A model generated the notes under the pieces. The model was not told where the DNA came from and did not search any database. It worked only from the letters and a program-made list of their open reading frames with translations. From positions 6,624,999 to 6,688,998 of the forward strand of contig OU696591.1 in assembly GCA_916048095.2 (NCBI GenBank): a stretch of DNA of 64,000 nt. Direction: 5' to 3'. Position 1 is the stretch's first letter. Every line of letters starts with the position of its first letter. The DNA is from Sacculina carcini. Taxonomy: Eukaryota; Arthropoda; Thecostraca; Sacculinidae. The position numbers were made by a program, and so were the translations under genes. This document shows positions 18,673 to 43,063 of this stretch, in pieces.

Positions 18673-18714
<42 letters not shown>

Positions 18715-19860: not shown

Positions 19861-19865
19861 AGGCA

Positions 19866-19867
<2 letters not shown>

Positions 19868-19922
<55 letters not shown>

Positions 19923-19949
19923 ACACACACACACACACAGAGGATCTCT

Positions 19950-20018
<69 letters not shown>
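19868..20018. repeat. (CA)n...(TA)n compound tract
   Basis: CA run, AGAGGATCTC, then TA run; the same AGAGGATCTC link recurs at 38414, 43038 and (inverted) 57880. Confidence 0.95.
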
Positions 20019-20019
<1 letters not shown>

Positions 20020-20620
20020 TATGATGTTGGTGTAGCCAGGCAGTAAATTTTCGCGTTTGCAAACGAGAATAAACTGGATTGCTATTTCACATTTAGCAAT
20101 TTTATTTTTGGTCGATTCCATGTCTCTAGCCAATTTCTGATCGCTTCTATTCAGACAACTCTACAAGTTCCCTATATTACTTAACGTTTCGGAGTCACCA
20201 GACTCCATCATCAGACACAAATCACATGAGAACACAATAACAACGCAAATACCATCATACAATCACTACAACATTCAAACAATAATTCACAGGCTATTTA
20301 TGTCATTAACCAGGTGTCACTCCTAGGTGTCATTGTCTGGTAGGTTTGAAAGTGGTGTTGGCTGGCTATCGCAGGGGTTCGTCGAGCTTCGCTCCAACGG
20401 GGGGGTTCGGTGAGTTGGCAGAATACCGTTTTCTTCGAGCTGTATTATCAGCGTCGGCTTCAGTTGGGTGATATATACCGCCTCTAACATGCGCAATCGC
20501 CGTGCGTCGTTTTCGCGGGCCAAAACCTGTGTTCCTTCGACGATGTCTTGACGTGTGATTTTTATGTCATGTGCCGAACTGAAATGCCTCTTGATAGCAC
20601 CGTTTTTGAGGTGGCAGTGT
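20019..20620 (-). pseudogene. PLE 3' end: GIY-YIG fragment plus displaced N-terminal segment
   Basis: Minus strand begins inside the nuclease at CHLKNGAIKRHFSSAHD, keeps LARENDARRLRMLEAVYI and ends ...SNLPDNDT at 20323. The UTR, the hammerhead-like core and the N-terminal segment (MESTKNKIAKCEIAIQF, ENLLPGYT) follow down to (TA)n. It is homologous to the plus-strand PLE at 3211-5698. The RT is missing: the element is cut at about 20620, where a Gypsy fragment on the opposite strand begins. Copy 2 has the same junction, so the truncation predates the duplication. Confidence 0.85.
20183..20214 (-). ncRNA. Hammerhead-ribozyme-like core in PLE end
   Basis: CTGATGA, then stem GGAGTC / GACTCC closed by TGGT, then GAAAC: exact hammerhead core bases with a perfect 6-bp stem II. 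Stems I and III are not evident; PLE hammerheads often act as dimers. Confidence 0.5.
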
Positions 20621-21590
20621 CCCGCTCGACAGGCCCATGCAAATTTTGCAAGAAAAAAGGACATTTTCAGAAGTGTGTCGCCGGCGTTCAAGGACACAAT
20701 CGCAAAGCGTCTCACAGATGCAAGTTACGAGCATCATAGCCAGCACGACGACTGAACATGCACCACGGGTGACAGTGACGTTGCAAACCGACAAGACCAT
20801 CAAAGTATCGGCACTCCCGGATTCCGGAGCTGATATTTCAGTAGCTGGACTCGATATACTGCATCGACTGAGTATGACATCAGCTGATTTGACTCCAGCT
20901 TAGGCTCATAATCGTGCAAAGTTGGACGATCAATCAGCAGTTGAGACTCTGGGAACATTTTTAGGAAACGTCTCTTGCGGGCAACACAACGCACGAAAAG
21001 TCTTTCATGGTCTGCCTGGAGTTCAAGGACTCATTCTATCATGGCGCACCTCGCGTGCATTTCATTTCTTCCATGAACAGTACCCAAGACAAATAGTGTG
21101 CGGGATCGACGCTAGTGGTACTGTAAAGGTACATCCCGTCACTAGTGAACCTTCAAAGGCGATGGTCTCACATCCAGCAAGCGATGCAGATGACATAATG
21201 CAGTGTTTTCCTCATGTTTTTGACGGAATCATCAGACCACTTTCGGGTGAAAAATTCTTAATTGCTCTTCGTGAAGACACCAAGCCTTTCTGCGTTAAAT
21301 CACCCAGAAGGATATCGTTCGCTCTAAGAAACAAACTTAAAGATGAGCTTGACACTGTCGTACGGAGCGGCGTAATCACTCCAACGACTGAAATGTCGGA
21401 CTGGTGTGCGCCAATAGTCGTGACACCAAAAAAAACATTGCGACAAAATTCGTCTTTGCATCGATCTGACGCGCCTAAATCGGTATGTCGTCAGGGAGCC
21501 TTACATGAGCGACAGTCCGGCAGATGTTGTGTCATCTATTTCAAAATCTGACGCACAGTATTTTGCAGCCTTCGATGCGCTCAAAGGTAT
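20621..21590 (+). pseudogene. Gypsy gag-pol fragment: zinc knuckle, protease, RT start (copy 1)
   Basis: Reads CKFCKKKGHFQKC (CCHC knuckle with the spacing C-2-C-4-H-4-C), then the aspartic protease LPDSGADISVAG, then the pre-RT region SGEKFLIALRED and the RT start VRSGVITPTTEMSDWCAPI. Damage private to this copy: a TAG at the end of LTPA near 20900, and an extra A in the CCAAAAAAAACA run near 21430 that shifts the RT frame. The RT ends before its catalytic motifs at 21590. No LTR adjoins. Inactive. Confidence 0.85.
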
Positions 21591-21902
21591 AAATGAATAA
21601 ATACAGTCAAAAGCTTAACCAATAGCAAAATCGAAATTTGTAAATTCTTACTCTACCTGTGTGTGAACATTAGCTCCAAGAATTATTGGTGTGATTTTAT
21701 TGCGTACGGGCTAACTATGAGTCTCTTGGGTCTAGCTTAACTCTTTGGGTCTATTTGAGGCTATTTGAGGGAAAATATTTTGTGAAAATAAAAATGAAGA
21801 TATTCACATTTAGACTTTTCTATTGGTTTATAGGTGAGACATATTATGGGTTCACATATTGTTTTATTTGTATTCCTTTTTAATTTATAAATTGAATATG
21901 AA
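21591..21902. other. Dispersed AT-rich repeat
   Basis: TTAACCAATAGCAAAATC and TAGACTTTTCTATTGGTTTA form a loose inverted pair, and related TTAACCAATAGAAAAGTCTA strings occur at 36090 and 60210; part of the CCGC/GCGG repeat family. Confidence 0.5.
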
Positions 21903-22458
21903 TGTAGCTGTCGCTGAAAGTGTATTTTTAGTTTGTCATGTTTTAAGTATGGCTGAAATTTATTTATCTCTAAAATAAATATATAAAAGTGAATTTACTC
22001 CATGATAGGTTCATGCTAAAAGTGTTTCCATATAACCGCGTGTGGCGACAATTGTGGTTGGAAGCAGAAACGTGAGTTTGGTATTCTTTGGAACTTTGGT
22101 TTGGTGAATGAGAACGGTGCTATTTGGATGCGTTAAGCAATTTGTTTGAGCGTCAGTTCTCATACTTTTCTGGATTGTGTGTCAAGGAGCCAATCGAGGT
22201 CAGTTTTCCATTGGATATGCCTATAAGTTTGGCTGTATGTGGACTGTCGTGTGTAAGTTGTATTCGTTATAATTCGTTCGTTGAAGTTGTATTCGATATA
22301 TCATATTATAATGTGTTTATTTTCCATGTGTTAATTTTGATTTTCCAGGTTAACGATTTCTCTGCGTTGCAATATACAATTATATACAATCTGGTGTTTT
22401 GGAGCTTCGAGGCGGCGCAGGGGGACCCGTCGACCAACTCCGTAGACTCACAATCACA
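21903..22458 (+). mobile_element. Solo LTR with 5-bp target duplication, 556 bp
   Basis: Starts TGTAGCTGTCGC, ends CACAATCACA, flanked by ATGAA on both sides. Copy 2 of the segmental duplication has the empty site (GAATATGAATATT near 44968). It contains a TATA box (AATATATAAAAG near 21980). TG...CA ends with a 5-base duplication mean an LTR left after recombination between the two LTRs of a full element. It inserted after the segmental duplication. Gypsy or BEL/Pao type both give 4-6 base duplications. Confidence 0.9.
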
Positions 22459-23240
22459 ATGAATATTATTTTATGAAGTGTTCCGCACGACGGACGAGTT
22501 TAAATTCTAGCTTGTGAGAGATTTCTCAGTAGCATTATTGGTGAGCCCACTTTCGAGGTAAGTCTGTGAGTCTGACAAGGTGTGATAAAACATTATAAGA
22601 AAGAATAAGTTATGTCGCATATTGTCTGCTGTGTAGTGTGTGTGCGTACACGAAACACACAAACACACACACACACACACACATGCACACACACACACAC
22701 AAGTTCCAAAAGCTACAGTAAACAACCATGAAGACAGTGGGCCTGTCAGCACACATTGCGCTGCACAAACCACAGCGAGCTAGCACGGAAACGCCCCAAT
22801 GCAAAACGAAACGATGGATGTTTATGAAATGAAAATGTCCCGCGGGCAGCAACTATAGACAATAGGACGTTCAATTTCACCGTGTAGAATGAATTCATAT
22901 ACAAAACTACCGGATTTGACTTCAAGATCCAGAACGGATCGTGTTCGAGTTCTGAATTATTCAGCACGACGGGCGGGTTTGAATATGAGGAGGGCTGAGG
23001 GGAAGTATTTTGTTGAAATTGAAATAAAAATTACTTAATTTTGACTCCAATTGATAAAAAATGTATGAGTTTACCTTTTTTCCTTTTAAATTTGCCATAT
23101 TTGTATAAATTAAATACGAATTTCATTTTATTAATTGCTCCGCACAGCGGGCGTTTTTTAATGCTAGTATTTATATAAATATAAATGAAATGATCTATCT
23201 GTCTGTGTGTGTATGCTTGAATATGAGGTGACCTAACTGT
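22459..23240 (+). mobile_element. Helitron-like CCGC/GCGG repeats, inverted relative to 5738
   Basis: Contains GTTCCGCACGACGGACGAGT...CTAG (22478-22512), AGCACGACGGGCGGGTTTGA (22965), CTCCGCACAGCGGGCG...AATGCTAGT (23140-23167), then the far-end motif near 23210. A CA tract at 22646-22700 interrupts it. Confidence 0.5.
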
Positions 23241-24486
23241 GCGGACTCAATGGTATAGATCAGGGGCTTTGCAGTGTTTGTACTTATATATTTGCAAATA
23301 ATTGATCTGTTGAATGAAATGATGAAGGTTATTATAATCAACGTAGAATCTTGCTATTGTACGGCTGTAGCTGGCATCGTTTTCCAGGATGTTTGCAAAC
23401 ACAAACTTCGGCCTCAGTCGGTGCTCTGTTCCTCTTTTTGTCGTTTTCTAGAAGTTTCGAGCTGCTGCACGCTTTTCCTAATTGTCCTGGTGACTTGACA
23501 ATGACATTTGATGAAGGCTATGAAACCTTGCCTCTTGATTCCTTGTACGAGCCAACTCTGGAAGCGCACCTACTGTGAAAGAAATGCTCATCTGCCACTT
23601 CATATTGCTTCGAGTCGAATTATGTCTGGGTGATTCTCCATTTCTGCGCCATTCTTGCACTAACCATCGGCACATTGCTCACGTGGGACAACACTTGGTG
23701 TTCAAGCATAGCTCACCGTAATATCACGTTGATGAAATGACGAGATTCTGTGATATGTCTTACGATTGTAGCTTATAGGATTGCATGAATGACCTGTTAA
23801 AGCGCTCATTGTTCCAATTGTGCACTGCAGCTGCTGATTTGTCGGTATCTTTGTGAATGCGAGCCGTCGGTAAACGCTCAGATACTCATCAATATTTCTA
23901 CCAAATTCATCCTGACTTTTACTTTGTTGTGCTTCTGATCATGATGTAGAACTCCATTGGCTACATCTGTATCCAAACACTTGGCGGAATTGTGTACTCA
24001 AAATATTGCATGGTTGATTTTTAATCAAGTATCGGTACTTTGGTCCCAAACACCATTTTCAACCACAAACATTTCAATTGGCTATTCGAAACATACACTG
24101 ATTAGACCCAAGCTTGTACGATCACTGAGATCAATGACAAACTACTTTAGGATATTTCAGCGGGCACACCATTACATGCACTGAACGAGGATTGAATGTC
24201 AACTGGAAACCGTAATCTGTGCTGTTTCACATTATGAGTGTTTATTGAGAGACGGCTGACTGTCACGACAATATAATCCATTTGTAAATGGTTGAGATAA
24301 CGTTTTTGCCTCAAGCAGAGTATGTCAGTATGTCGAAAACGGCAAAGGTAAAATTCCTGTCTAAGTCATCATCAATCCTTTAGACTTGGAAAAGTAAACG
24401 GCCCACGCACGAAGCAAAGCACTATTTGCAAATGAGAACAGAAGGGCAATGCTTAAAAGTCAAATCAATCAAGATGATTTAGGGCA
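23241..24486. other. Unassigned sequence, duplicated at 45775-47015
   Basis: About 1.2 kb of non-repetitive-looking DNA. Short ORFs on both strands (for example minus 23675-23478) differ by frameshifts between the two duplication copies, so no conserved coding is evident. It may be part of an unrecognised transposon. Confidence 0.4.
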
Positions 24487-24842
24487 TTGGTTCTCAGCTG
24501 GATTCGGCTCGTGGACACCTAACGGTCTTCGGGCACTTTCCGTGGACCCCGCCTCAATTTTGTCAAAAACGCGAATTTCAATTTCAATGCGAGACCTGCT
24601 CTTTGCAGTCCGCGACCAGTTTTAATATGTTTATATAATTATATAAATTTACGCATTTGAACACAGCAATGGATAGGCTAATGTTCGCGTGGGCAAAGCC
24701 TCACGGCCCCGGCTGGCACACCGCAGGTCCGGCCGCACGGATTTTGCAGTCACCGCCAGCACAGAAACTGCACGGCTGCGCGCACACAAAACCCGCAGTG
24801 CGAAAATTGGGCTACCCTTTCAGAAACGAGCCCAAACGTTTC

Positions 24843-24913
24843 ACCTCACCAGGGAATCGAGCCCTGGAACTCTCGTGCACAGAGCGTGCGTCTTAGCCAC
24901 TCGGCTACGAGGC
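24843..24913 (-). mobile_element. tRNA-derived sequence (class II tRNA-like)
   Basis: Minus strand: A box TAGCCGAGTGGCTAAGACG, B box GGCTCGATTCC inside a perfect T arm CCAGG...CCTGG. In copy 2 the B box reads GGTTCAATTCC. The anticodon arm is abnormal and the acceptor stem poor, so it is a tRNA-like SINE head or tRNA relic, not a working tRNA. Confidence 0.6.
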
Positions 24914-24924
24914 GGACAAAAATG

Positions 24925-24959
24925 ATATGTTTGTTATGTTATGTTATGTTATGTTATGT
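24925..24959. repeat. (TATGT)n tract
   Basis: Five-base repeat TTATG about six times; repeated in copy 2 at 47470. Confidence 0.9.
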
Positions 24960-26705
24960 TAATATGTTTGGTTTGGTCTCAGAACATGCGAGTCTCATAT
25001 CACTACTCATTTCAAGTCGATTTCTTTTATTTTGCTTCAGATCGAACATCACTGAAAACCCTGTTTCACACAAGTACGTCGTAGGAAACGGGAGAAACAT
25101 CTCCGCTGCCTTGTTGCAAAGACGTGGATAAATGTCCTGCTGTTGTAGCCAGAATTTGCTGAGGCTTAGCTTTCGGAATTCGGCCTTGGCCACTGCTGAC
25201 TCTCGGAGCATGAGCAGCTACTCTGCCTCCTCCATTTCGTCGTCCACTACCGCTCCGAATGGGTCTTTGTACCATGGGTAGTAGGCCGGTTCGACGCCGT
25301 CGAAGTAAACCTTGATATCACTCGTGAGCCCTTCGAGATGCGCAGCGATAGACTCCTTCAAATCATCAGGGAGGTCAAGTTGTTTGTCGAGGAGGAAGGC
25401 ATCCAGCAATGGAAAGGCAGCGACGTTCCCTCGGTGCAGTCTCCGAATCCAGAGGGCAATTCGAGCCCCCAATCCGGCGAGTTTGCCCTTCACGTCCGAT
25501 ACAGACGCCTCACGGCCCTGGAGAGTGACATTTACTTCGTTCAAGGTGCCGAAAATGTCTGCCAAGTACGCCAGCTTCATCAGAAACTCCGGGTTCTTGT
25601 AGTTTTTGTGGCGATGATCTCCTCTGGTTTCCATCTCGCGAAGGAAGATATCCACTTCCGTGTGCATTTCAAAGACCCTGGCCAGGCACTTTCCCCTCGA
25701 GAGCCAGCGAACCTGAGTGTGGTAGAGGAGGCTCGTATGGGTCGAGCCTATTTCCTGTGCCATCATTCCGAAGAACCGGTGGTTCTTGGCGCGCCCTCGG
25801 ATGAAGTTGATGGAGCTGATCACGGAGTCGAGCACAGACATCAACTCAGGAGGCATCGTCTTCGAAGCGAGAGCGTATCGGTGAAGAGAGCAGTGAGAAT
25901 TGGAGATGTGAGGCCACTTACTCTTCACGAGGGTAATTAATCCTGTCCGAACACCGATCATGGCTGGCGCTCCATCAGTGCAAATGTGCTGGAACTGCAT
26001 CCACGACAACCCGTTCTTCTCGAAAAAGTAATCAACAATCTTCTTGACCACCTCCGCCGTCGTTGTGGTAGTCAGGAGCTCGCAGAAAAGGAACTCCTGC
26101 TTCACCTTATTCTCCTTTTCGTAGCGGACAAAGGCGATCAGCTGACTTTGGTTCGCTATGTCGGTAGACTCGTCGAGTTGAAGACTTGCCCGAAATGCAC
26201 TGGCCCGGATCACTTGGCAAACTTGGTTGCACACGTCGGCCGCCATGACGTCAATCCTCCGCCGTACGGTGTTGTTGGAGAGTGAGATCTTTGAGATCTC
26301 CCGCTTGGCCTTTTCTCCGAGAACATTGCGAACCATGATCTCCGCGCATGGTTTGATGAGCTCTTCGCCGATCGTATGCGCCTTCTTCCTCTCCGCGATC
26401 TTCAGGGCAACTTCGAAGCTGGCTTGAACCATAGGCTTGGATTCGGGTTGGAATCCGTAAGTAGGCAGAGTACCTTGCTTATCAAAGCGTTTCCTCTTGG
26501 CTTCAAAGTCCTCCTCGGTCAGCTCAATATTCGGGTGTAGATTGCTCTGGTGGCGCGACAACTTCGCCGGTTTTAGGGAGCAGTTGGCCAAGACAGTGGA
26601 GCAGTAGAAGCATTGAGCCGCGTCCAGTCCGTCCCGCGAGAACTTGGTGAAGCCATACTGCTGGTAGGTTTCGTTCCACTTCCTCTTCTTGGACGTTGAA
26701 GCCAT
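24954..26705 (-). pseudogene. hAT transposase, ZBED5-like, copy 1 (in-frame stop)
   Basis: Starting at MASTSKKRKW (ATG 26705), the protein has a BED-type finger (C32, C35, H52, H57), the catalytic Asp regions LQLDESTD (D178) and HICTDGAPAM (D244), and the Cys/His block NSHCSLHRYALASK (270-282). A TAG at 25220-25218 stops it after DDEMEEAE. The same frame then continues through SLSKFWLQQQDIYP and the hAT dimerisation domain FPTTYLCETGFSVM to 24954. It is the vertebrate ZBED5/SCAND3-like group of hAT proteins, many of which are transposon-derived. The stop is shared with copy 2, so it is older than the duplication. Without the C-terminal domain transposition is unlikely. An alternative start MSKIKYN lies 12 codons upstream. 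Confidence 0.88.
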
Positions 26706-26840
26706 CTGCGAAGTACAATTATATTTTATTTTTGACATGGTCATAGCGATCAAAACTGTATGTATCAAACAAGTCGTAATACAATGATTTAACTCAGACA
26801 ATACAATGATGAGACTTAGACACACTCATTCACACAGACA

Positions 26841-27914
26841 GACACAGACTATCAGAAGCGTTCCCTCGAGAGTGACGTCATTTCTTTCTCTATGTCTCAC
26901 ATTTATTTTGATAAATAAGTCTTGATGGAAGAAGGTCTTTTTTCTGAGAAGGTGAAAAAGGCTGTTTTTTATTTTAAGAAAGACTCTGAGTTATAAATAT
27001 ATGCAGAAATCTTGTTTTTTATATTTCATGTTTTGGAAACGAACGAATGAGATACGTTCCCGCGAATGACGTCATTGCCTTCTAGTTGTTTAAAAAACAC
27101 GAAGGACATTCTTTATAAGACAATTTTTGTATGTAATAAGGTCGACAAGAATTATGCTATGCGATTTAATAAAACAATTCTTATAAATATTGCTCGTAAA
27201 CTAATTCATTTATGTTCGTTGTTACATGTAAAAACATAAATGTTTATAAATAGTCACTCACGGGGTCCAATAGACCCCCAAGGGGTCCACTGGACCACTG
27301 TTGGGATCCACGGATTTGGGGAAAGCGTCTTTGAACTTCCTCTGTTTGCCTGTGCACCCTGTGTGCTAATCTGCCAGCACGTGGACAGCGCACTGCACAA
27401 ACATGGTCTGCATGAGCAGCCGCCCTGCAGCGTTTGCTGCAGACTGCAAAAAACAACGACTCAAAACAAAACGCTCAAAACAAGCGATGCAGCCGGGACC
27501 AAGGCGTGCGTCGTACAACTTCTGTGCTGAACAGCCACACAAACGTGCTTCAACACGAAAACACACACATGCTATTCGTAGACAATTTCAAATTGTTATT
27601 GAACTTTATTTAATCTAAGATATTTTTGCCAACTTTCAACAAAATATCATGCTGGTAAATTCACTGATACAATGAAACTTTTTAAAATTTTGCTCGTAGG
27701 AAGAGCGTTATTTATATAAGAAAATCGGTATAATTCCATACCCCGCCAATGACATCGATAGCCCAAATCAGTTGTTTTGTGATTGTCTATGGTTTACTGT
27801 GTGTACGTGTGTGTGTGTGTGTACGTGTGTGTGTGTGTGTGTTTTGTTGTTTCTTGATGAAGGCAACACGATTTTTACTCGGAAATTGATCGGCCTTTGA
27901 GTATTCTATGGAGA
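26841..27914. other. hAT upstream flank and unassigned repeat
   Basis: AT-rich DNA with two GCGTTCCC...GTGACGTCATT repeats (26855-26885; 27052-27078) and a CpG-rich island at 27350-27560. Open frames at 27240-27530 and opposite overlap each other and look spurious. (TG)n at 27797-27841. Confidence 0.45.
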
Positions 27915-28258
27915 ATGTATCAGATGCGGTTGATCAGACCAGTTTCTTGAAGAAAAATGCACACATGTCGTCGCATGAAGAGATGCATGCCAGGGCTCAT
28001 ATTGGTGCCACCAAGCAGCATTGAAATAATGATGTTTTGTATACCACGTCTTTGAAGTTTGGTCATGAGCAGCTGCTGGCTGTCAGCGTACTTGCAACAC
28101 TGAACAAGTACGTGATCGACAGTCTCGTCTTCTGCGCAGTGCGGGCATGCTGCATTCGTGATGAGCTTGAGACGCGTCATATGCTGGTTGAGTTTGGTAT
28201 GTCCAGATCGGAGTCGGAAGAGTGATACATCGAGATGCCGATTAGTGCATTTGGCCAG
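27915..28258 (-). pseudogene. I-like LINE C-terminal fragment, copy 1
   Basis: Minus strand reads MTRLKLITNAACPHCAEDET, HVLVQC, MLLGGTNMSPGMHLFMRRH and ends ETGLINRI, the zinc-knuckle-like C-terminal end that follows RNase H in I/Jockey-type LINEs. It is cut at 28258, the duplication border; copy 2 keeps the RNase H (50442-51350). Confidence 0.8.
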
Positions 28259-28445
28259 TCTTATCTAATAGAAAAGTATATAGGTGAATATTTTTTATAT
28301 TTGGACACAATATTTCCCTCAAATAGCTTCATATTTAAGCCTGCCCGTCGTACGGAAATATTCAGAACTCAAACACGACATAGTGAAAAATGATGAAAAA
28401 TGAAACATTTTCATCAGAATATTTCCAATATATATATATATATAT
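28259..28445 (+). mobile_element. Dispersed repeat, 5' part, split by a PLE
   Basis: Near-identical to 57508-57685. The right part resumes at 29071, with the PLE fragment between. Confidence 0.8.
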
Positions 28446-28990
28446 TTTGAGCTTTCTGATGTTATGCTCCTGGCAAATGACGGATGTATTGTCAGTGAGG
28501 ATTGTTCTGTTGAGCTTGATCTTATGCTCTTGCGCGTAGTGCCGAAAAATAGCGCCGTCGTGCAAGTGAGCAGTGAGTCGCTTGTGCAAAGTTGTTGTTG
28601 TGTGGCCGATGTATTCAGAATTACGGAGACTGCAGTCTCCAGTTTGGCATTTATGTGAATACACGACGTTCACTTTTTGCGTCTCTTCGGTCCTTGGTAG
28701 GCAGCTATTCTTGACAATCGACTGGTATGTTTTTCGAGTTTTGTAGTAAATGACTAGTTTAATTTTTGTTTCTGGTTGACATGGAGTAACGTGTTTCCTA
28801 ATGATTTTCTGAAGTGCAGTCTCGTCTTGTTTGTAATTTGAGCTCATAGTGTTTCTGTAATATAATTTGAGTGTATCTTGGTCTCTGTCTTGGTTGTTTT
28901 CATTCGTAATCATGAAGTCATGTAGTTTTTGTCTGATTACGTCATCGATGCCTTTTTGTGTGTAGCCATTATTAGTCAATAATTTGCCGA
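28446..28990 (-). pseudogene. PLE fragment with GIY-YIG nuclease, nested insertion
   Basis: Minus strand: LVIYYKTRKTYQSIVKNS, VNVVYSHKCQTGDC, EYIGHTTTTLHKRLTAHLHD, then RHYAQEHKIKLN and EHNIRKLK, where (TA)n cuts it. This is the linker and GIY-YIG domain of a PLE from a family distinct from the one at 3211 (about half the positions differ). The RT and the Glu-containing end are missing. TA runs lie at both ends. Confidence 0.85.
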
Positions 28991-29014
28991 CTCTATTGAT
29001 TTCCGGCTCTATTG

Positions 29015-29018
<4 letters not shown>

Positions 29019-29071
<53 letters not shown>
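29019..29071. repeat. (TA)n microsatellite
   Basis: TA run at the PLE's upstream end. Confidence 0.97.
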
Positions 29072-29073
<2 letters not shown>

Positions 29074-29280
29074 CTTAACATAATTCCCCAACATCATTTG
29101 CACAAGTACTATTATACTTTTACCAGTATAATATTAACTGCCGAAAAATTAGTATATTTCTTATTATTAGTTTCTTATTATTATTTCTTATTATCTTATT
29201 TCTTATTATTATTATTCTTATCTTATTTTCTTATTATTATTCTTATTATCTTATTTCTTTCTTAAATTAAAGGTTAAAAG
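29072..29280 (+). mobile_element. Dispersed repeat, 3' part, then TTATT repeats
   Basis: AACTTAACATAATTCCCCAA to GCCGAAAAATT matches 57684-57765; then degenerate (TTATTA) to 29270. Confidence 0.75.
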
Positions 29281-29602
29281 GTTAAATGCCTAAGTGGCAG
29301 CTGCTACACGGGAAGAAGCCGAAGCTTATGAACACACAGGCGTGCCCCGTGCAGCTCGCTGCCACCGCAGAACCGACCCTCTCCACGCTATGGCGCCACA
29401 AGGACGTAAGACGTATTAGAGAGGGCCACCTCCCCAGAATGCATGGCACAACTCATGACTGATATCTGGTACCATTTACTGCTGGGTTGACAGGGGCTGT
29501 GGGATTGTAGAATTCGCCCAATGAAATTCTGCTCCGCCGGGTTTCGAACCACGGACCTCCCGCTTGTGAGGCGGGTGTGCTAACAACTGCACCACGGAGT
29601 CC
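29281..29602 (-). mobile_element. tRNA-Val-derived SINE, full length
   Basis: Minus strand starts GGACTCCGTGGTGCAGTTGT with A box GTGGTGCAGTTGTTAGC. The anticodon arm CCCGCCTCACAAGCGGG carries CAC (Val), and the B box is GTGGTTCGAAACC. A body of about 250 bases follows, ending CAGCTGCCACTTAGGC. The 3' part recurs at 8831-8916. The tRNA head is well kept but continuous with the body, so it is a SINE, not a tRNA gene. Confidence 0.85.
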
Positions 29603-29636
29603 ACGGAGTCCTTATTTCTTATTATTATCTTATTAT

Positions 29637-30615
29637 TAGTATAAGTATATTTCTGTGTAATCGCAAGTGCGTAAATTGTGATTGGACTTCAGTGAAATTA
29701 AATCAGTGTATATTCATGTGTAATCGCAAGTGCGCATAATAGCTGTCAAATTGGCAACATGACATTTTGACTTTACACCGCCGTAACTTACTTCAGATAT
29801 ACTTTGGAAAATTACAAATTATACCGTATTGTAGAAATCAAGATTTCTAGCACGATGGTATAATTGATTTTAATGTGTGACAAATAGTTCCTGAGAAATA
29901 GTAGAAAAATGAATTGATTTTAGTCACCTGGTGTTCAAGTGTAATTTGGGATGCATTTGAGAATTTTGCCAATTTTACACGTTTTTTGTATCATTTGTGG
30001 GTATAAATTATAACTTTTCTTGTAGAACACAAAATTATCTACACAATAGTATAATTTCTATAGCTGTACCATTGCTGGTTTATGAGGAATAGATAGCGAA
30101 ATATTGACCAAAATATTCACGTTCATGTGTGCTAATGTTGCCTTTTTGACTTTGTCATTTACACTTCACACCGCTGTAACTTGTTTTTAATACACTTTGG
30201 AAAGTTAAAAATTATACCGTGCTGTAGAATACAAACTTTCCAGCATGATGGTATTACTTATTTAGATGTGTGATAATTACTTTTTGAGAAATAGAGAAAA
30301 AAGTATAGAAAATCGGACGCGTGGAGTATAAATATAATTTTGAATGTAGATTGATTTTTTTTACATTTTACATGTCTTAAATTCGTTTTTTGGGTATAAA
30401 TTATAGTTTGTTGAGTGGAATAGAAAATTTTCTACACAGTGGTATAATTTTATAGTTGTACCATTGCTGGTTTAGGAAGAGTAGTCTTCAGAAAATTGAC
30501 CAAAATTTTCCCATTTTTCAGGCTTCATTTTGTCTTTTCACCGCTCTAATTTTTTTGGTTTTATTTTTAAAATTAAAAATTTAACCTACAGTGTAGACAA
30601 AAAAATTCCGGAGAT
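29637..30615 (+). repeat. TATAAATTATA satellite block, composite copy I
   Basis: Same unit plan as 18845-19860. It leads without a gap into the 142-bp tandem repeat. Confidence 0.9.
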
Positions 30616-31030
30616 AGGGTATAGGAGGAGATAGGGTAAACAGACACAAATGACCTCAATGACCTTAAAAATGACCTCAGAGTTAAACAAAACCTAGCCT
30701 ATGACCTTCTCGCATCCATTTTACCCCTAGGGACCAAGTTTCATCAAAATCGGTCCAGTGGTTCAGAAGGAGATTGGGTAAAAAGACACAAATGACCTCA
30801 ATGACCTTGAAAATGACCTCGGAGTTCATCAAAACCTAGCCTATGACCTTCTTGCATCTATTTTACCGCTAGGGACCAAGTTTCATCAAAATCGGTCCAG
30901 TGGTTCAGAAGGAGATTGGGTAAACAGACACAAATGACCTCAATGACCTTGAAAATGACCTCGGAGGTCATTGTCGTTCCTCGGAGGAGACAGGATACAA
31001 ACAGACATTTAGAAAATTTGCAATCAGTGC
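30616..31030 (+). repeat. 142-bp tandem repeat, composite copy I
   Basis: GACACAAATGACCTCAATGA starts at 30643, 30785 and 30927: period 142. Each unit holds TTCATCAAAATCGGTCCAGT. The same array has two units at 54209 and four at 62562. Confidence 0.92.
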
Positions 31031-31900
31031 AGGGCAAAAAAATCATCAATTCGGACCTTCGGGCCGAATTGGAAAATGCTGCAGTCGTTTCTGTTTGTCG
31101 TTCCTCGCAAACAGCGCGTGTTGCTCAACGGTAGAACGACACAGGGGTCCGATGTAACCAGCCGAGTGCCGGAGGGATCCTGATACTGAGTCCGTACTGA
31201 GTCCGCTCCTGTTTGACATACTCGTCAATGACCTAGCAGTGAGCTTGGGAGACTCGGCGCTACTCTACGCTGACGATATCATCAATTCTTCATTGTGTCG
31301 AGATGGCTACAGATGGCCAGATTCTACAGTGTCTAATTGGCCGTTTTTGTACCTGCTGCGGTGAATGCGAATTGAGACTTGACTCAATCAAATGTTGAAA
31401 GCTCAGCGTTACACTCAGAAAGCAGTTGTGCTTGTGCGAGTATAAAATTGGCGGTGAAATAGTACAGACGATTTGCGTGGTTCGTGTCCTGGTTGTCATG
31501 ATGAATCTAATCTCACCGTCCTGGGTGTCATGATAAATCTAATATCACCGTCCTGGGTGTCATGATGAATCCAATCTCACCGTCCTGGGTGTCATGATGA
31601 ATCTAATCTCACCGTCCTGGGTGTCATGATGAATCTAATCTCACCGTCCTGGGTGTCATGATGAATCTAATCTCACCGTCCTGGGTGTCATGATGAATCT
31701 AATCTCACCGTACTGGGTGTCATGATGAATCTAATCTCACCGTCCTGGGTGTCATGATGAACGATAAACTCACCTTCGACCCACATGCTGAAGCCATTAC
31801 TCAGGTAATTGTGCGAGAAATTGGTTAGGTAATTGTGTGAGTGGTTGGTTAGGTAATTTTGCAGGTAATTGTTACCTAAAAATACCCCCTTACACAAAAA
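31031..31900 (+). pseudogene. CR1-like RT fragment containing the 32-bp minisatellite, composite copy I
   Basis: Plus-strand RT pieces: FVVPRKQRVLLNGRTT, a degraded GVPQGS block (RVPEGS), LLFDILVNDLAVSLGDSALL followed directly by YADDIIN, then GECELRLDSIKC, EYKIGGEIVQTICVVRVLGV and, after the minisatellite, MMNDKLTFDPHAEAITQ. This is motif order B to E of a CR1/Jockey-group LINE. YADD is intact, but frames change several times. The coding piece stops at AITQ near 31802, and GGTAATT repeats follow. All three window copies share the start and end, so they descend from one already broken copy. Confidence 0.75.
31486..31774 (+). repeat. 32-bp minisatellite, 8 units plus the 33-bp source unit
   Basis: Eight exact 32-base steps from 31486 to 31741 (unit GTCCTGGGTGTCATGATGAA + TCTAATCTCACC), then a 33-base version GTCCTGGGTGTCATGATGAA + CGATAAACTCACC, which encodes VLGVMMNDKLT in the RT frame. 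Confidence 0.97.
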
Positions 31901-32446
31901 TACCCAATTACCCCAAAAATACCCACCCAACCCAGTCTCTGACTTTCAGTCTCTGACTTTCAGTCTCTGACTAACCCTCGCTGAGTGTGCACGTGTTTTC
32001 CGTCGCTCGTTCGCGCCCGGCTGTCTACGCTTCGCTGACGCTCACCGACGACAGATCCTGCTTTCTGCTAACGCTGAGTGTTCATTGAGTTATATTTCAG
32101 TTGTTTTATTATTATATTTGATTTAGCGTTATTTTGATTTTTCATTACTCGTTTTGTTCATTGATAATTTTTGCCTTTTTAAAGGCGGATATTTTCTTCT
32201 TGCGAGCTCATTCATTTACTTTTAAGACTGTTTAAGACTTTTAAGTCAATTAATCTTTTTTTATTTCAGGTTATATATTTGAATTTTTATATTTTGTTTC
32301 TGAATGTGATTGAGAATCAGGGTTCGCAGCCATAGTTGCTTTGCAATCTTCCTGCTGAATTCTCTCATCACATTCTTTTTCGTCACTTTTCAGTTCAGTT
32401 TGTATATTATTTAATTTAACTTTGTCTATAAACATAAGTGTTGTTC

Positions 32447-35400
32447 ATGGATATATGTATTATTTTCTGTCTCATGTCTGTTTTGTTGATGTGGCGGGCC
32501 GAAAATTGTAGCCCCGCCCCGACGGCTAACGGCCGGTTTTCCCGTTTTCCGTCAGCGCCCAGCTCTTTCCTCGCACTGAGGTGCCAACTAATTCTATGTT
32601 GCTCTCATACTCTGTCTTTGTGGTCGCCCATTGGACATTTTGCCTTGCGATATGTGTTTAACAATGAGCTCTCAATAAATTGTTCTCACATGTGTTTTCT
32701 AGTGTTTTTCTTGTGTGTGTATTTGTGTGTATGTTTGCTTTGTATTGTGTGTGTTGTATGCTTGTTTTTTGTTGTGAAATTTCGTATGCATGTGTTATGT
32801 GTTGTGTTTTTGTGTTCGCATGCGTCGTGCATTATGTGTTTATTTGTATGTCTGCTTTGTGTTGTGTGTGTGCCTTCTCACACCGTGGATTTGTCGTTTC
32901 TACTGATGATGTGTGGCGATGTTGAAATGAATCCCGGTCCTGCTCGACCACAAAAACGATTTTCAAATATACTTTTCGCCAACATCAGGGGCTTGTATAA
33001 GAACATCAGAGATTTGACAGCAGCCAGTCGCTCCAAGGACATCGTTATCTGTGCCGAAACGCTTGTGTCCGATTATCGGGACCAATCTGAGCTCTTGATG
33101 CCAGGTTTCAGTAAGCCATTGCTAATCAAACGTGACTCAAAAAACAGGCGGCGTGGCATGGCAGTGTACGTACGCAAAGGCTTTTCAGCAACGAGAATTA
33201 CAGCTCACGACTGCACTTGTCATGAATTTATGCTGCTGTGTGTCAACACCGCCTTGATGAATTTTTACATCTTTGGAGCCTACCGAAATCCAGACAGTAA
33301 CGACTCTATCTACGAATGTCTCTTGTCAGCCATGTCAACAATTCAGGAGAAGGACACCAAGTCAGCATTTGTATTTGTGGGAGACATGAACGCCCATCAC
33401 CGTGAGTGGCTCTTGTCGACATCTCCTACAGACGCTCATGGTAGAGCAGCATATGATTTCTGCAACATTTCTGGCTGCTCCCAAATGGTGTCCGGTCCCA
33501 CACATCAAGCGGGAAACTGTTTGGACTTGGTTATGACAGACGTCTCAGATATCGTGAGTGTAAGCGTGGAAGCTCCAATAGGAAGTTCAGATCACTCGTC
33601 GCTGTCCGTGAAGTTGACATTGAGACAGAAGGTTTCTCCTTACACGATTTCAAGGCTCGTGCACATGAAGAACAATGTTGACTGGGTGAAGGTGAATGAT
33701 GAATTGAAAGCAATTAAAGTTTCAAATCTGCAGCAGAAGGAATGCCCCATCGATGCATTGAACAAATACATTACCGATGTCATCTCAAGGAGAGTGCCTA
33801 CTAAAAAACTACGTTTTCGCTCTGATGACAAAGCCTGGTTCACCAACGAATGTCGCAGCGCTCGTGAATCCAAGCAGGAGGCTTACCACAAGTGGCTCCA
33901 ATCACGCTCAGCCGATTCATGGAATGTCTACACTGAGGCCAGACGGCATGCTGAGCATGTGTATTCAGAAGCGGAAACACGTCACTCAAAGAAACTTGCT
34001 GAAAAGCTAACATCTGCCAATGACGCCCACAAATGGTGGTCAACGTTGAAATCGTCAGTGTTTGGACATGACCTGTCTGTCCCTCCTTTATTTTCAGCGA
34101 ACGGTGAGCTCAAAATCAACCCAACAGAGAAGGCAGAGTTGCTTATGGATTACTTCAATACCAAGCAATGTCAAGGGTCCATTCCGTCTGACGATTCATC
34201 TGTCCTCGCCCCGAAAATCAAAGGCATTGCCTTCCGATCAAAAGAAGTGGCGAATCTCATGAAAGACCTTGATGCCCACGGAGGAACAGACCCTCTGAAT
34301 ATGTTTCCGCTATTTTTCAAGAACACGGCAGATACTCTAGCTCCGAAGCTCAGTGCTCTTTTCAGGCGCTTGATGAAGACTGGTTCGTTTCCATCATGTT
34401 GGCGGGTTGCGAATATCACGCCCATACCAAAAGGAACCAATTCAGCTGATGTTGCAAACTACCGGCCAATATCAATTACGCCGATTCTGTCCAAAATATT
34501 CGAGCATTTGATATCTTCCAGACTGTCCAAGTACCTGGAGAGCAACAATCTGCTGTCGGAAAACCAATTTGCATACCGCAAAAAACTCAGCACGACTGAC
34601 GCTCTGCTTACTATCACACATGAGCTCCAGCAAGTGCTAGACAAAGGCAGTGAAGCCTGGATTGTGCAGTTGGATTTCTCGGCAGCATTTGACCGTGTGA
34701 GCCACCAGGGCTTGTTGCAAAAACTGAGAAAGATTGGAGTCGGCGGCCGTTTGCTAAGTGTTTTGCATCAATTTCTATCCAATCGCGTACAACGTGCTGC
34801 CATCGATGGAGCATACAGTGGCTGGCAGAGCATTGCGTCCGGTGTCCCGCAGGGAAGTGTGTTGGGTCCTATTTTGTTCAACATTTACACCGCTGACCTG
34901 TACACAACCACACGCAACCCTGTATATGGATATGCTGATGATATCACCTTGATGGCTGTAATTTCATCTCCTTCGGACAGACCACAGGTGCGTCAAACGG
35001 TCAAGTACGATCTCAGCAGCGTCCTGAAGTGGTGTGAGAGGTGGAATATGATGCTGAACACTTCGAAATCTAAATGCTTGTTGGTTTCTAGGTCACGTAC
35101 CGTTCAGCCTTCACATGGAGCTATCCTCATAAATGACGCCCAACTCAACGTGTGTGATGAGCTCAAAATATTGGGAGTACATGTAGACTCAAAGCTCACG
35201 TTTGAGAGTCACATTCGGAAGCTAGTTTGTTCGGCATCGCGGAAACTGGGAATTATAAGAAAGGCATATCGGATGTTCGGTAGCAGCACAATCTCAAAAA
35301 GTTGTTTTCGCTGTTTCATTTTGCCAATTCTGGAGTACTGCGCCCCCGTGTGGTCTTCTGCTGCGGATTGTCACCTCAATCTCATCAACAGAGTTGTTAG

Positions 35401-35743
35401 AACTTGCAAGTTCCTCTGTGGTGACTTGGTTCATGGTGATCTTTGCCATCGTCGAAAGGTCAGCAGTGTGTGCATGCTGTACAAGATCAAGCACAACGAC
35501 CATCATCCGATGAGCAAGTCAATTCCTGATAATTTCGTGGCAGCAAGAAGTACACGGTTTACATCCAAACAGCATTCCCAGTGCATGGCTCCAATTCGTT
35601 GTCGTACAAAACAATTCCAACGTTGCTTTCTTCCGGCCACTGTGTCTACTTGGAACACGTTGAAGGAGGAGGCTTTCTTGCAGAGCAATTTGAACAAATT
35701 CAAGGCCAAAGTAAATGAAATGCTACTGAAAGAGCGGAATTGA
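32447..35743 (+). CDS. LINE ORF: 2A peptide, APE endonuclease, reverse transcriptase
   Basis: Uninterrupted 1,098-codon ORF. Residues 80-150 are strongly hydrophobic (Cys/Val/Leu, from TG-rich DNA) and may serve as a signal peptide. Residues 150-165 read LSFLLMMCGDVEMNPGP, a complete 2A motif (D-V-E-x-N-P-G-P), which makes the ribosome skip the last Gly-Pro bond. The APE-type endonuclease follows (NIRG, CAET, VGDMNAHHREW, GSSDHSSL). Then comes the RT: ITPIPKG, QLDFSAAFDRVSH, SGVPQGSVLGPILFNIYT, GYADDITLMA (about 829-832), and a long thumb/C-terminal region. All catalytic residues are present. CR1-group is my best placement. 2A-bearing LINEs of this sort are known in sea urchin and some other invertebrates. 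The true start is unsure: ATGs at 32447 and 32690 both precede the 2A. Likely a young, possibly active copy. Confidence 0.92.
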   Translation: MDICIIFCLMSVLLMWRAENCSPAPTANGRFSRFPSAPSSFLALRCQLILCCSHTLSLWSPIGHFALRYVFNNELSINCSHMCFLVFFLCVYLCVCLLCIVCVVCLFFVVKFRMHVLCVVFLCSHASCIMCLFVCLLCVVCVPSHTVDLSFLLMMCGDVEMNPGPARPQKRFSNILFANIRGLYKNIRDLTAASRSKDIVICAETLVSDYRDQSELLMPGFSKPLLIKRDSKNRRRGMAVYVRKGFSATRITAHDCTCHEFMLLCVNTALMNFYIFGAYRNPDSNDSIYECLLSAMSTIQEKDTKSAFVFVGDMNAHHREWLLSTSPTDAHGRAAYDFCNISGCSQMVSGPTHQAGNCLDLVMTDVSDIVSVSVEAPIGSSDHSSLSVKLTLRQKVSPYTISRLVHMKNNVDWVKVNDELKAIKVSNLQQKECPIDALNKYITDVISRRVPTKKLRFRSDDKAWFTNECRSARESKQEAYHKWLQSRSADSWNVYTEARRHAEHVYSEAETRHSKKLAEKLTSANDAHKWWSTLKSSVFGHDLSVPPLFSANGELKINPTEKAELLMDYFNTKQCQGSIPSDDSSVLAPKIKGIAFRSKEVANLMKDLDAHGGTDPLNMFPLFFKNTADTLAPKLSALFRRLMKTGSFPSCWRVANITPIPKGTNSADVANYRPISITPILSKIFEHLISSRLSKYLESNNLLSENQFAYRKKLSTTDALLTITHELQQVLDKGSEAWIVQLDFSAAFDRVSHQGLLQKLRKIGVGGRLLSVLHQFLSNRVQRAAIDGAYSGWQSIASGVPQGSVLGPILFNIYTADLYTTTRNPVYGYADDITLMAVISSPSDRPQVRQTVKYDLSSVLKWCERWNMMLNTSKSKCLLVSRSRTVQPSHGAILINDAQLNVCDELKILGVHVDSKLTFESHIRKLVCSASRKLGIIRKAYRMFGSSTISKSCFRCFILPILEYCAPVWSSAADCHLNLINRVVRTCKFLCGDLVHGDLCHRRKVSSVCMLYKIKHNDHHPMSKSIPDNFVAARSTRFTSKQHSQCMAPIRCRTKQFQRCFLPATVSTWNTLKEEAFLQSNLNKFKAKVNEMLLKERN
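32897..32941 (+). other. 2A 'stop-go' recoding site
   Basis: Codons for SFLLMMCGDVEMNPGP. The skip would fall between GGT (32936-32938) and CCT (32939-32941), releasing the hydrophobic leader from the endonuclease-RT. Confidence 0.85.
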
Positions 35744-36680: not shown

Positions 36681-38345
36681 TTGTGATTGGGCTTCAGTGA
36701 AATTTAATCGGTGTATATTCCTGTGTAATCGCAAGTGCTCATAATAGCTGCCAAATTGGTTATATGTGCTTTTGAATTTACACCGCCGTAACTTCCTTCA
36801 GATACACTTTGGAAAATTACAAATTATACCGTATTGTAGAAAACAAGATTTCTAGCACGATGGTATAATTTATTTTTATGTGTAACAAATAGTTACTGAG
36901 AAATACGTAAAAAATGAAAAAAATTTAGTCGCCCGGTGTTCAAGTGCAATTTTGGATGAATTTGAGAATTTTGCCTATTTTACACGTTTTTTGTATCATT
37001 TGTGTGTATAAATTATAACTTATCTTGTAGAACACAAAATTATCTACACAGTAGTATATTCCTGTGTAATCGCAAGTGCGCATAATAGCTGTCAAATTGG
37101 CAATATTTCTTTTTGAATTTACACCGCCGTAACTTCCTTTAGGTACACTTTGGAAAATTAAACATTATACCGTATTGTAGAAAACAAGATTTCTAGCACG
37201 ATGGTATAATTTATTTTTATATATAACAAATAGTTACTGAGAAATAGTAGAAAAATGAATTAATTTTAGTCGCCCGGTGTTCAAGTGAAATTCTGGATGT
37301 ATTTGAGAATTTTGCCAATTTTACACGTTTTTTGTATCATTTGTGGGTATAAATTATAGCTTATCTTGTAGAACACAAAATTATCTACACAGTAGTATAT
37401 TCCTGTGTAATCGCAAGTGCGCATAATAGCTGTCAAATTGGCAATACGTCTTTTTGAATTTACACCGCCGTAACTTCCTTTAGGTACACTTTGGAAAATT
37501 AAACATTATACCGTATTGTAGAAAACAAGATTTCTAGCACGATGGTATAATTTATTTTTATGTATAACAAATAGTTACTGAGAAATAGTAGAAAAATGAA
37601 TTAATTTTAGTCACCCGGTGTTCAAGTGTAATTTTGGATGTATTTGAGAATTTTGCTAATTTTACACGTTTTTTGTATAATTTGTGGGTATAAATTAAAA
37701 TATTTCTTGTAGAACACAAAATTATCTACACAATAGTATAATTTTTATAGCTGTAACTCTGCTGGTTTATGAAGAATAGATAGGGGAATATTGACCAAAA
37801 TATTCGCGTTTTTCAGTGCTAATTTTGCATTTTTGACTTTGTCATTTTGACTTCACACCGCCGTAACTTTTTTTTAATACACTCTGGAAAATTAACAATT
37901 ATACCGTGCTGTAGAAAGCAAAATTCCCAGCATGATGGTATTATTTATTTAGATGTGTGATAATTAGTTTTTGAGAAATAGAGAAAAAAGTATAGAAAAT
38001 CGGACGCGTGGAGTTTAAAAAATATTTTGAATGTTGATTGAATTTTTTTCCCTTTTACATGTTTTATATTTAATTTTTGGGTTTAAATTTTAATGCGTTG
38101 AATAAAACATGAAATTTTCTACACAGTGGTATAATTTGTATAGTTGTAACATTGTTGCTTTAGGAGTAGTATTCTTCAGAAAATTGAACAAAATTTTCGC
38201 ATTTTTTAGGGTTCATTTTGTCTTTTCATCGCAATAACTTTTTTTGGTTTTATTTTTAAAATTAAAAATTTAACCTACAGTATAGACAAGAAAATTTCCA
38301 ACATGATGGTATAAATTTTGAGCGGGTACGCCAAGTGATGCCCGA
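36681..38345 (+). repeat. TATAAATTATA satellite, clearest 340-bp tandem stretch
   Basis: GTGTAATCGCAAGTGC(G/T)CATAATAGC occurs at about 36722, 37062 and 37402: period 340. Three full units are followed by the diverged half-units. Ends at the AGCAGCTCATAGAAAATG link. Confidence 0.92.
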
Positions 38346-39839: not shown

Positions 39840-40750
39840 ACATACACACACAAACACACACAAAGACAGACAGACAGACAGAAAGAGGCATTAGCGAATG
39901 GGAGAGAAGCAATTAGTTCATTGATTCTTGCAAGTAAGTTGAGTTTAATGTTATCTCCTTTTCGCTTAAGACCATTAGTGCGTGAAATGGCCCCAGATTG
40001 CACGTGCGCGCGCGTGTGTGCGTGTGTGCGTGTGAGTAGAAAAAGAAAATATGGAAAACGACTTGAGAGATAGAAAGAAGGATGAGATACGAGGATAGAT
40101 AAGATAGATAAGATAGAAAGATGGATAGAATGATAATTGACGCAATTGTAGAGATAATTCTACAATTGCTCATTCCACAATTGTGTTAACATTGCAGCAC
40201 GACACATTAACACACATTAACACAATTGAGCACACAATAACACACATTAACACACATTAACACATAATGACACATATTAACACACATTAACACATTAGCA
40301 CTCATTAATAACCAAACAAAACACACGCACTTGTGAAAACCCGTGTGTGTGTATGTGTGTGTGTGTGTGTGTCAGTGTGTGTTTGTGTGTCAGTGTGTAT
40401 GTGTATGTATGTGTATGTGCGTGTGTGTGTGTGTGTCAGTATGTGTGTACTTATATGTACGTGTACACATCTGTATTACTAAATGAAGTCCACAAATATT
40501 ACGGTATATTTTAGCAAATTTTTCCACAAAAGATGTTTCTAATAAACCATGCTATGTTCAAGATAAGAAATATAATATTTATACATATATTTCATATTGC
40601 CTGTAATTTATAACAATTTTCCCGGTACATTTTCATATACACATATATATATTTTGTTTTTCATATATATTTTTTGTTATATATTTAAGAAATACCTATA
40701 TTAGTTACCCTTTATTATTATTATTTTTTATTATTATAGAAGTGTCTTAC

Positions 40751-41203
40751 TTGGTCGGGTTTTGAGCGCAGGTAGTACAGCAAGCGGAGGAGAACTTGTC
40801 TGACACGTGAAGGAGGTGGAGGAACTAGTGGAGGAACTAGTGAAGGAACTGGTGGAGGAGGTGGAGGAGTTAGATCCAGCACACAACATTCTCTTCCTCT
40901 GCTCGTCTTCAGCAAACACTCCTGCGGCATGTGCAGGAATGAGTGTTGATGCGAGTACTTGGTGATGTCTGAGAGATGTTCATCATCTTGATGCTGGTGT
41001 TGATGGGAAACACAATGGTAATAATGCTCTGAGAACCTCTTCCTGGCCGATATCGCAGCAGACGGAAGCACGTGATCAAACAGCATTGATCGAGAACACG
41101 GTGCAAACACAGAATTTGATTGACGAGGCAAATAAGATGAGGAAAACGTGGAATTAGCGCGAGATTTCGGACAATATAATTCTTCTTGTCCCTCATCACA
41201 CAT
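40751..41203 (-). CDS. Duplicate of dipeptidase exon A (possible alternative first exon)
   Basis: Same 151-codon frame as 17914-18366 from MCDEGQEELYCPKSRANSTF to the phase-0 donor GACCAA/GTAAGA, with no indel. Nine base changes separate them, six amino-acid changing (two Ser/Tyr-type, Pro/Ser twice, Ser/Ala, Gly/Arg) and three silent, close to what neutrality predicts. The possible acceptor AG used upstream of copy 1 (TTGACAG) is TTGACCG here, so if the exon were internal this copy could not be spliced in. As a first exon it lies upstream of copy 1 on the gene's strand and could splice to exon B 25 kb away. Alternatively it is an orphan pseudo-exon; its own B, C and D are not duplicated. Confidence 0.5.
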
Positions 41204-41689
41204 CTTGTGTATTTGTTCACACAATGTCAGCTTGCAGGGGTGAACATTGAGCAGAACCAGACTCCTGCTTGCAATAATACCCCGATCATAAATATCCGGT
41301 CAATTTCACTATTGTAATGTCGCAGTGTTAATTTCTGCTTCACTTGCACCTTACAAGCAGCGGTAATGCACAGACAAAAGGCGATAGGAACATTTAACCT
41401 TTAGAAGAACATACAAACAGTCATTTAACTCTGAATTAAAGTTCGAAAATCAAATAAGAAACACACACACAAACACACAACCTCTCACATCGGCTTACAC
41501 TATCCCACTGACACACACACACACACGCACACATGAGCGCCAACGCAAACACCCAAGAGCACACTTGGTACACACGCACATACAAACGAGTACAATTGTG
41601 TTGATACAGCAACACGCTTGGAGAAATATGAGCGGTAATTGTGAAATATTCCACCGAGAGCATGTGCAAAGTGGTCTCCATCACCTCAT

Positions 41690-42910
41690 TACAAATTATA
41701 CCGTATTGTAGAAAAAATATTTCTAGCACGATGGTATAATTTATTTTTATGTATAACAAATAGTTACTGAGAAATAGTAGAAAAGTGAATTAATTTTAGT
41801 CGCCGGGTGTTCAAGTGTAATTTTGGATGCATTTGAGAATTTTGCCGATTTTACACGTTTTTTGTATCATTTGTGGGTATAAATTATAGCTTGTCTTGTA
41901 GAACACAAAATTATCTACACAGTAGTATATTTCTGTGTAATCGCAAGTGCGTAAATTGTGATTGGACTTCAGTGAAATTAAATCAGTGTATATTTCTGTG
42001 TAATCGCAAGTGCGCATAATAGCTGTCAAATTGGCAATATGTCATTTTGACTTTACACCGCCGTAACTTCCTTCAGATATACTTTGGAAACTTACAAATT
42101 ATACCGTATTGTAGAAAACAAGATTTTTAGCACGATGGTATAATTAATTTTAATGTGTGACAAATCGTTCCTGATAAATGGGTATAAAAATGAATAAATT
42201 TTAGTCACCCGGTGTTAAAGTGTAATTTTGGATGTATTTGAGAATTTTGCCAATTTTACACGTTTTTTTGAAACATTTGTGGGTATAAATTCTAATTTTT
42301 CTTGTAGAACACAAAATTATCTACGCAATAGTATAATGTTTATAGCTGTATCATTGCTGGTTTATGAGGAATAGATAGCGGAATATTGACCAAAATATTC
42401 ACGTTTTTTGTGCTAATTTTGCCTTTTTGACTTTGTCATTTACAATTCACACCGCCGTAACTTTTTTTTAATACTTTTTGGAAAATTAAAAGTATACCGT
42501 GTTGTAGAAAACAAAATTCCCAGCATGATAGTATTATTTATTTAGATGTGTGATTATTAGTTTTTGAGAAATAGAGAAAAAAGTATAGAAAATCGGACGC
42601 GTGGAGTTTAAATATAATTTTGAATGTAGATTGAATTTGTTCCCATTTTACATGTTTTATATTTTATTTTTGGGTATGAATTATAATTAGTTGAGTAGAA
42701 CAGAAAATTTTCTACACAGTGGTATAATTTGTATAGTTGTACCATTGCTGGTTTAGGAAGAGTAATCTGCAGAATATTGACCAGAATTTTCGCATTTTTC
42801 AGGGTTCATTTTGTCTTTTTACCGCTATAACTTTTTTATTTCATTTTTAAAATTAAATATTTAACCTACAGTGTAAACAAGAAATTTTGCCAAATGATGT
42901 ATAAATTTTT
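41690..42910 (+). repeat. TATAAATTATA satellite block (duplication copy 2)
   Basis: As 18845-19860, but with an additional half unit near 41930-42290, so the satellite has changed length since the duplication. Confidence 0.9.
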
Positions 42911-42973
42911 AGCGGGTACACCTAGTGATGATTGAGTAGCAGCTGATAGAAAATGGACCAAGAATGGTAGGAC

Positions 42974-42974
42974 A

Positions 42975-43041
<67 letters not shown>

Positions 43042-43063
43042 GATCTCTTTTATATATATAGAT
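42974..43063. repeat. (CA)n with short TA link
   Basis: Copy 2 has a long CA run but only a few TA repeats, against the 90-base TA run in copy 1. Confidence 0.95.

Follow-up and report, generated by a model that had tools for sequence, protein, structure and literature searches.

Short tandem repeats are known to arise from pieces of the coding sequence of transposable elements. Among the systems described in the sources cited here, the closest to ours is the satellite CficCl-61-40 of Chenopodium. As that paper describes it, the monomer comes from the tnp2 domain of Jozin, a CACTA-like element: the start monomer is a ~40-bp fragment of the tnp2 transposase domain, and with arrays of up to ~125 monomers it forms a major satellite family (PMC7320549). 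Coding sequences of LINEs can also feed tandem repeats, and a review lists the ORF2-like satellites HinfI (similar to CR1, in chicken) and PROsat (similar to L1, in Phodopus) (PMC9659126). Other elements carry short arrays with them. Tetris of Drosophila virilis, a foldback element with TIR-220 repeats, is described as non-autonomous, with a long inverted repeat and variable internal tandem repeats (PMC4079207), and the Cg_HINE Helentrons of Crassostrea gigas are described as non-autonomous elements that spread short satellite-like arrays (PMC7492417).

Here we describe a 32-bp minisatellite from the genome of Sacculina carcini. It is a further case of the route from a transposon coding sequence to a tandem repeat, and the record of its source unit is unusually clear. 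As reported for CficCl-61-40, the monomer resembles a conserved stretch in the coding sequence of a transposable element, and the coding fragment is the end monomer and has the same direction (here in 49 of 50 arrays, with the remaining one truncated). Unlike CficCl-61-40, whose source is a transposase, our array probably comes from the reverse transcriptase (RT) of a non-LTR element. Also, our arrays have 1 to 26 units and were seen only within a larger repeat, which we call the carrier. The array shares with HinfI and PROsat a source in LINE coding sequence; those satellites are described as containing partial ORF2 or a small similar region, whereas our unit is 11 codons long, with the source unit still in place at the array's end. 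The carrier is like Tetris in being non-autonomous, with a long inverted repeat and variable internal tandem repeats. In Tetris, as described, the repeats lie within the terminal inverted repeats, but in our carrier a palindrome lies at one end and the array is outside it. The carrier is also like the Cg_HINE elements in spreading short arrays, although Helentron termini are not established for it and its ends are not fixed.

The array and its terminal unit

The window is the whole stretch of DNA that was analyzed, 64,000 nucleotides at C29:6624999-6688998 in a genome of 264 Mb and 43 contigs. An earlier, sequence-only reading of the window had placed the array at 31486-31774, with a 33-base last unit that runs into FDPHAEAITQ, and the unit coordinates agree with this exactly. 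Eight 32-bp units with the consensus GTCCTGGGTGTCATGATGAATCTAATCTCACC occupy 31486-31741 (plus strand) and start at 31486, 31518, 31550, 31582, 31614, 31646, 31678, and 31710. The ninth unit, at 31742-31774 (plus strand), is 33 bp long and keeps the RT reading, as VLGVMMNDKLT. The sequence 3' of this unit is TTCGACCCACATGCTGAAGCC, and the RT frame carries on as FDPHAEAITQ (31775-31804, plus strand), in a common frame with the 33-bp unit. At the other end of the array, the first unit (VLVVMMN) is likewise in frame with the left flank YKIGGEIVQTICVVR. TRF gives the array a score of 517 with 96% matches. The window contains two other arrays of this kind, both on the plus strand: eight 32-bp units and a 33-bp unit at 54975-55263, and eleven 32-bp units and a 33-bp unit at 63612-63996.

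When we aligned the 33-bp source to the 32-bp consensus, we found 29 matches, 3 mismatches, and 1 deleted base, and none of 10,000 shuffles reached this score. This fits the earlier view of the units as the same segment with small changes. The differences form one block: AACGATAAACT in the 33-bp unit corresponds to AATCTAATCT in the 32-bp consensus, and the remaining positions are identical. The 32-bp units had been thought to lose a base unit by unit. A base is indeed missing, but because the differences are confined to one short block that is common to the units, it is more likely that a single event altered one unit and that this altered unit was then amplified.

Arrays across the genome

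To count arrays, we searched for their junctions with up to 3 mismatches; control patterns read backward had 0 hits in each search. Across the whole genome, there are 170 junctions of the left flank with a 32-type unit, 168 of a 32-type unit with a 33-type unit after it, and 166 of a 33-type unit with the right flank. A 33-type unit followed by another unit was found at 0 places genome-wide (again with up to 3 mismatches). So the genome contains about 170 arrays, and their structure is uniform. We also found 1389 32-type units, which amounts to 8.2 for each left junction and 8.4 for each right junction.

We read 50 distinct arrays with 402 units. All of the units are 32 bp long except for one of 31 bp, and 253 match the consensus exactly. 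The mean is 8.0 units per array. Comparing this with the 8.2-8.4 units per junction suggests that few if any units lie outside the RT context (a few stray units are possible), which agrees with the sequence-only reading that the array arose inside the RT coding region. Nor did we find long arrays that stand as a separate satellite: the carriers account for the 1389 units in ~170 arrays, and the longest array read has 26 units.

The 33-type unit is the 3' end of 49 of the 50 arrays, and the exception (L038) is truncated. The largest array (L028) has 26 units, including the one of 31 bp, and is without the left flank. The sequence-only reading had pointed to RT copies with zero or one unit. The smallest array (L060, on C11) is a one-unit copy, in which a single 32-bp unit precedes the 33-bp unit, but a zero-unit copy, in which a 33-type unit would directly follow the left flank, was found 0 times genome-wide (with a 45-base pattern and up to 3 mismatches). 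We regard L038, as well as L037 and L047, which have a single unit followed by other sequence, as truncated arrays.

The loci that we read are the best matches, not a random sample, and copies that arose by segmental duplication are not independent. We left L001-L008 out of the counts owing to their overlap with larger loci or with the window, and L029, L032, L034, and L056 as duplicates. The plus-strand copy in L023 and L035 are one copy and were counted once, and L060-L062 were included. Copies entered the array count if they had two or more unit starts, which excluded L037, L047, L058, and L059.

The carrier is a composite repeat

In a full-looking copy (L024, ~1929 to 5483), the carrier is 3.5 kb long. 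Besides the 32-bp array, it contains four tandem arrays, with periods of 19, 142, 24, and 18/19 bp. At its right end is a palindrome (4596-5027 and 5052-5483 of L024) with two 432-nt arms that are 98% complementary and 24 nt apart. In the window, the 142-bp repeats are at 30626-30971 (plus strand), and the 24-bp and 18/19-bp repeats are at 31803-31934 (plus strand), where a LINE insertion interrupts them at 31934. The palindromic right part is at 55468-56178; it is incomplete in the window and complete in L024. We rejected 31934 as the right end of the carrier: this is where the LINE entered the first copy in the window, and other copies continue.

The left end of the carrier lies next to a TA run, and the exact end is not fixed. 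The 142-bp repeats occur with two forms of the left flank. The first form is in L011, L012 (minus strand), L019, L020, L021, L023 (both copies), L024, L025, L026, and L038, and the second form is in most of the copies from C29 and in some others. Because the left flanks vary between copies, we call the carrier a composite repeat and do not place it in a transposon family. A long inverted repeat is absent from the left end of L024, and the single long pair sits at the right end, which led us to reject a foldback transposon like Tetris.

The LINE that was inserted at 31934 has an intact open reading frame at 32438-35743, which encodes a protein of 1101 amino acids (P0001) with an endonuclease and an RT according to Pfam. 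The LINE starts with a 14-bp tandem repeat (CAGTCTCTGACTTT), and the N-terminal part of the protein contains GDVEMNPGP, which we take to resemble 2A-like peptides. Elsewhere in the window, there are tandem repeats of 341 bp and 404 bp at 36713-37740 and 60786-62220; their relatives lie beside many copies of the carrier at other loci.

The array might have been retained for a function in the carrier, such as binding sites that aid its movement or a local role in chromatin within clusters of copies. The left and right junctions are nearly equal in number, each with units, and the period of 32 bp is close to three helical turns. Also, the Tetris paper mentions the proposal that internal repeats raise the transposition of foldback elements (PMC4079207). 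On the other hand, the number of units can drop to one (L060), and the carrier's four other tandem arrays suggest that it is unstable in general. We consider a retained function to be improbable.

Shared unit variants and the spread of the carrier

Variants of the unit can be followed between arrays. G18A is present in 28 of the 50 arrays and is at unit 2 in 21 of these 28. Arrays with G18A at unit 2 have 3 to 15 units and are found on contigs C29, C26, C11, C25, C21, and C37. T14G is present in 6 of the 50 arrays, which have 8 to 26 units and are on C35, C20, C16, and C1, and it is always within the last four units. Variants that are shared at like positions of arrays on different contigs show that a multi-unit array with distinguishable units existed before dispersal and that its interior changed length later. 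G18A is missing from 22 of the 50 arrays, and related copies are not independent, so either the loss of G18A or a second lineage must be allowed.

If the array had instead formed anew, by separate local expansions, in many RT-fragment copies, then the range of 1 to 26 units between copies would be easy to understand, as would the variants that are private to one cluster. However, recurrent expansion should give differing periods or differing changed blocks, and just 1 of the 402 units has another length (31 bp). Furthermore, the same block change is found in the units, G18A and T14G recur at like positions on different contigs, and no place was found, with up to 3 mismatches, where the left flank directly abuts the 33-bp unit. 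Independent origins therefore seem very unlikely, and we return to a single array that was dispersed with its carrier.

The best 150 of the 232 candidate fragments are on 20 contigs, so the carrier is present on at least 20 contigs. Of these 150 listed copies, 129 are within 150 kb of another, versus 23 expected under uniform placement. If copies up to 600 kb apart are linked, then eight contigs have clusters of at least 7 copies among the matches listed; examples, also among the matches listed, are C37 3.36-4.20 Mb (28 copies), C29 6.25-6.78 Mb (20), and C25 3.83-4.24 Mb (15). We would guess that the clusters are pericentromeric. Equal spacings between copies, of 11,111 and 11,113 bp on C36 and of 121.0-121.8 kb for four pairs on C23, indicate segmental duplication.

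At a larger scale, the regular spacing of the carrier at C23 5.87-6.12 Mb (~121 kb) and at C36 2.65-2.67 Mb (~11.1 kb) suggests large tandem segmental duplications. The window itself seems to contain a segmental duplication, of ~17900-31900 and 40700-55400, with an offset of about 22.5-23.6 kb. The two parts have pairs of tandem repeats (17979/40816, 26778/49307, and 30626/54188) and paired minus-strand open reading frames (25218-26825, 535 amino acids; 47903-49354, 483 amino acids), which have a weak similarity to DUF4371 (E = 0.00077 and 0.00016) that falls short of Pfam's cutoff.

Probable origin of the unit from a reverse transcriptase

We compared the terminal unit and its surroundings to P0001 and to other RT remnants in the window. 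VLGVMMNDKLTFDPH aligns with ILGVHVDSKLTFESH (residues 911-925 of P0001), and in 500 shuffles of P0001 this score was never reached. At the homologous place, two other RT remnants in the window have LGVAIDDTLTFNVHISQLVR (E = 0.10) and LGIIIDSSLSFDSHISDI (E = 0.19), and each of these matches is weak alone. In other RTs from the window, the corresponding segment is ~75 codons after the YADD motif.

The fragment just upstream of the array (31191-31485, plus strand) contains LYADD and ends with YKIGGEIVQTICVVR immediately before unit 1. Its similarity to P0001 is modest (1 of 500 shuffles reached its score), and the RVT_1 model from Pfam matches it with E = 0.073, which falls short of Pfam's cutoff. 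A Pfam search with the repeat unit gave no match. The upstream part of the fragment is at 31055-31205 (plus strand), and its homolog in L059, which does not have an 11-bp duplication that is present here, matches the RT of P0001 with 39.7% identity over 58 amino acids (E = 3e-9). Two features of non-LTR RTs, YADD and the LGV..L.F..H stretch, are present at their usual spacing, in a broken fragment only.

Because the unit stretch matches the homologous segment of other RTs in the window, its derivation from RT coding sequence, as originally proposed, is well supported by these comparisons, and within the fragment the array occupies the homologous position. P0001 is a relative of the source RT and not its parent, as it belongs to a different family. 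A protein search of the genome did not reach the parent: the best 150 of 232 candidates all share 89-100% identity with the query.

It is highly improbable that an unrelated minisatellite came first and abuts the RT fragment by chance. In favor of such a history, no continuous RT frame runs through the 32-bp units, and the left piece of 15 amino acids, taken by itself, does not match P0001 significantly (score 20, p = 0.79). Against it, both the 33-bp unit and the codons that follow are similar to RTs at the homologous place; unit 1 begins 223 bp from the L of LYADD, versus an interval of 80 codons (240 bp) in P0001; and the source and the unit are clearly one sequence.

State of the RT when the array spread

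An 11-bp tandem duplication at ~31185-31205 breaks the upstream RT frame. More broadly, all 51 distinct fragments are broken by a stop at most 33 codons after the L of LYADD, at the same codon in 43 of them, and a complete open frame for the RT was found in 0 of the 51. These early stops make it well supported that, for the copies examined, the RT was already dead when the array spread; the very first duplication may have taken place in a live RT. The sequence-only reading had proposed spread after the death of the element or movement in trans. The first part holds up for these copies. Movement in trans found no support, and part of the spread was by segmental duplication.

The 11-bp duplication is missing from 4 of the 51 fragments (L012, on the minus strand, L059, L061, and L062), and 3 of these 4 contain the array. 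So, either the array is older than the 11-bp duplication or the duplication was lost from those copies. We rejected two candidates for RT copies without an array. L059 ends short of the array's position, so it is uninformative about a former array, and L058 breaks off before that position. Directly upstream of the RT fragment in L059, we noticed by eye an LTR-like stretch (TG...CA, L059:79-676).

Proposed origin of the array

Taken together, we think it very probable that a broken RT fragment, a 33-bp duplication, amplification of a 32-bp form, and dispersal with the carrier jointly explain these arrays. The starting point would be a truncated and broken fragment of a non-LTR RT inside a non-autonomous composite repeat. 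In a founder copy, the 11-codon (33-bp) stretch would have been duplicated; we infer this step, as neither an intact parent RT nor a zero-unit copy was found. A block change in the upstream duplicate would have shortened it to 32 bp. This form was presumably amplified by slippage or unequal exchange, so that the 3' end of the array would stay fixed as the original 33-bp unit. The multi-unit array was then copied with the carrier to many contigs, as the unit variants shared between contigs show. Segmental duplication further enlarged the clusters, and the interiors of the arrays changed length from copy to copy (1 to 26 units). The product is probably repeat DNA, selfish or neutral, that yields no protein.

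A more specific version of the last steps is that the array is polar: the 33-bp coding-derived unit would anchor the 3' end without ever being amplified, with turnover in the interior only. We consider this rather doubtful. If true, it would point to directed expansion, such as fork slippage set by the neighboring palindrome, instead of free unequal exchange, and the ~170 copies would be a natural series for measuring directed expansion.

The source and the product of a minisatellite's birth are seldom seen side by side, and here 49 of the 50 arrays that we read retain the source codons. Several of the steps can be read in sequence, from the broken fragment, the array, and the 11-bp duplication to dispersal and changes in length. 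With their shared and private unit variants, the ~170 copies in S. carcini offer material for measuring how arrays grow.
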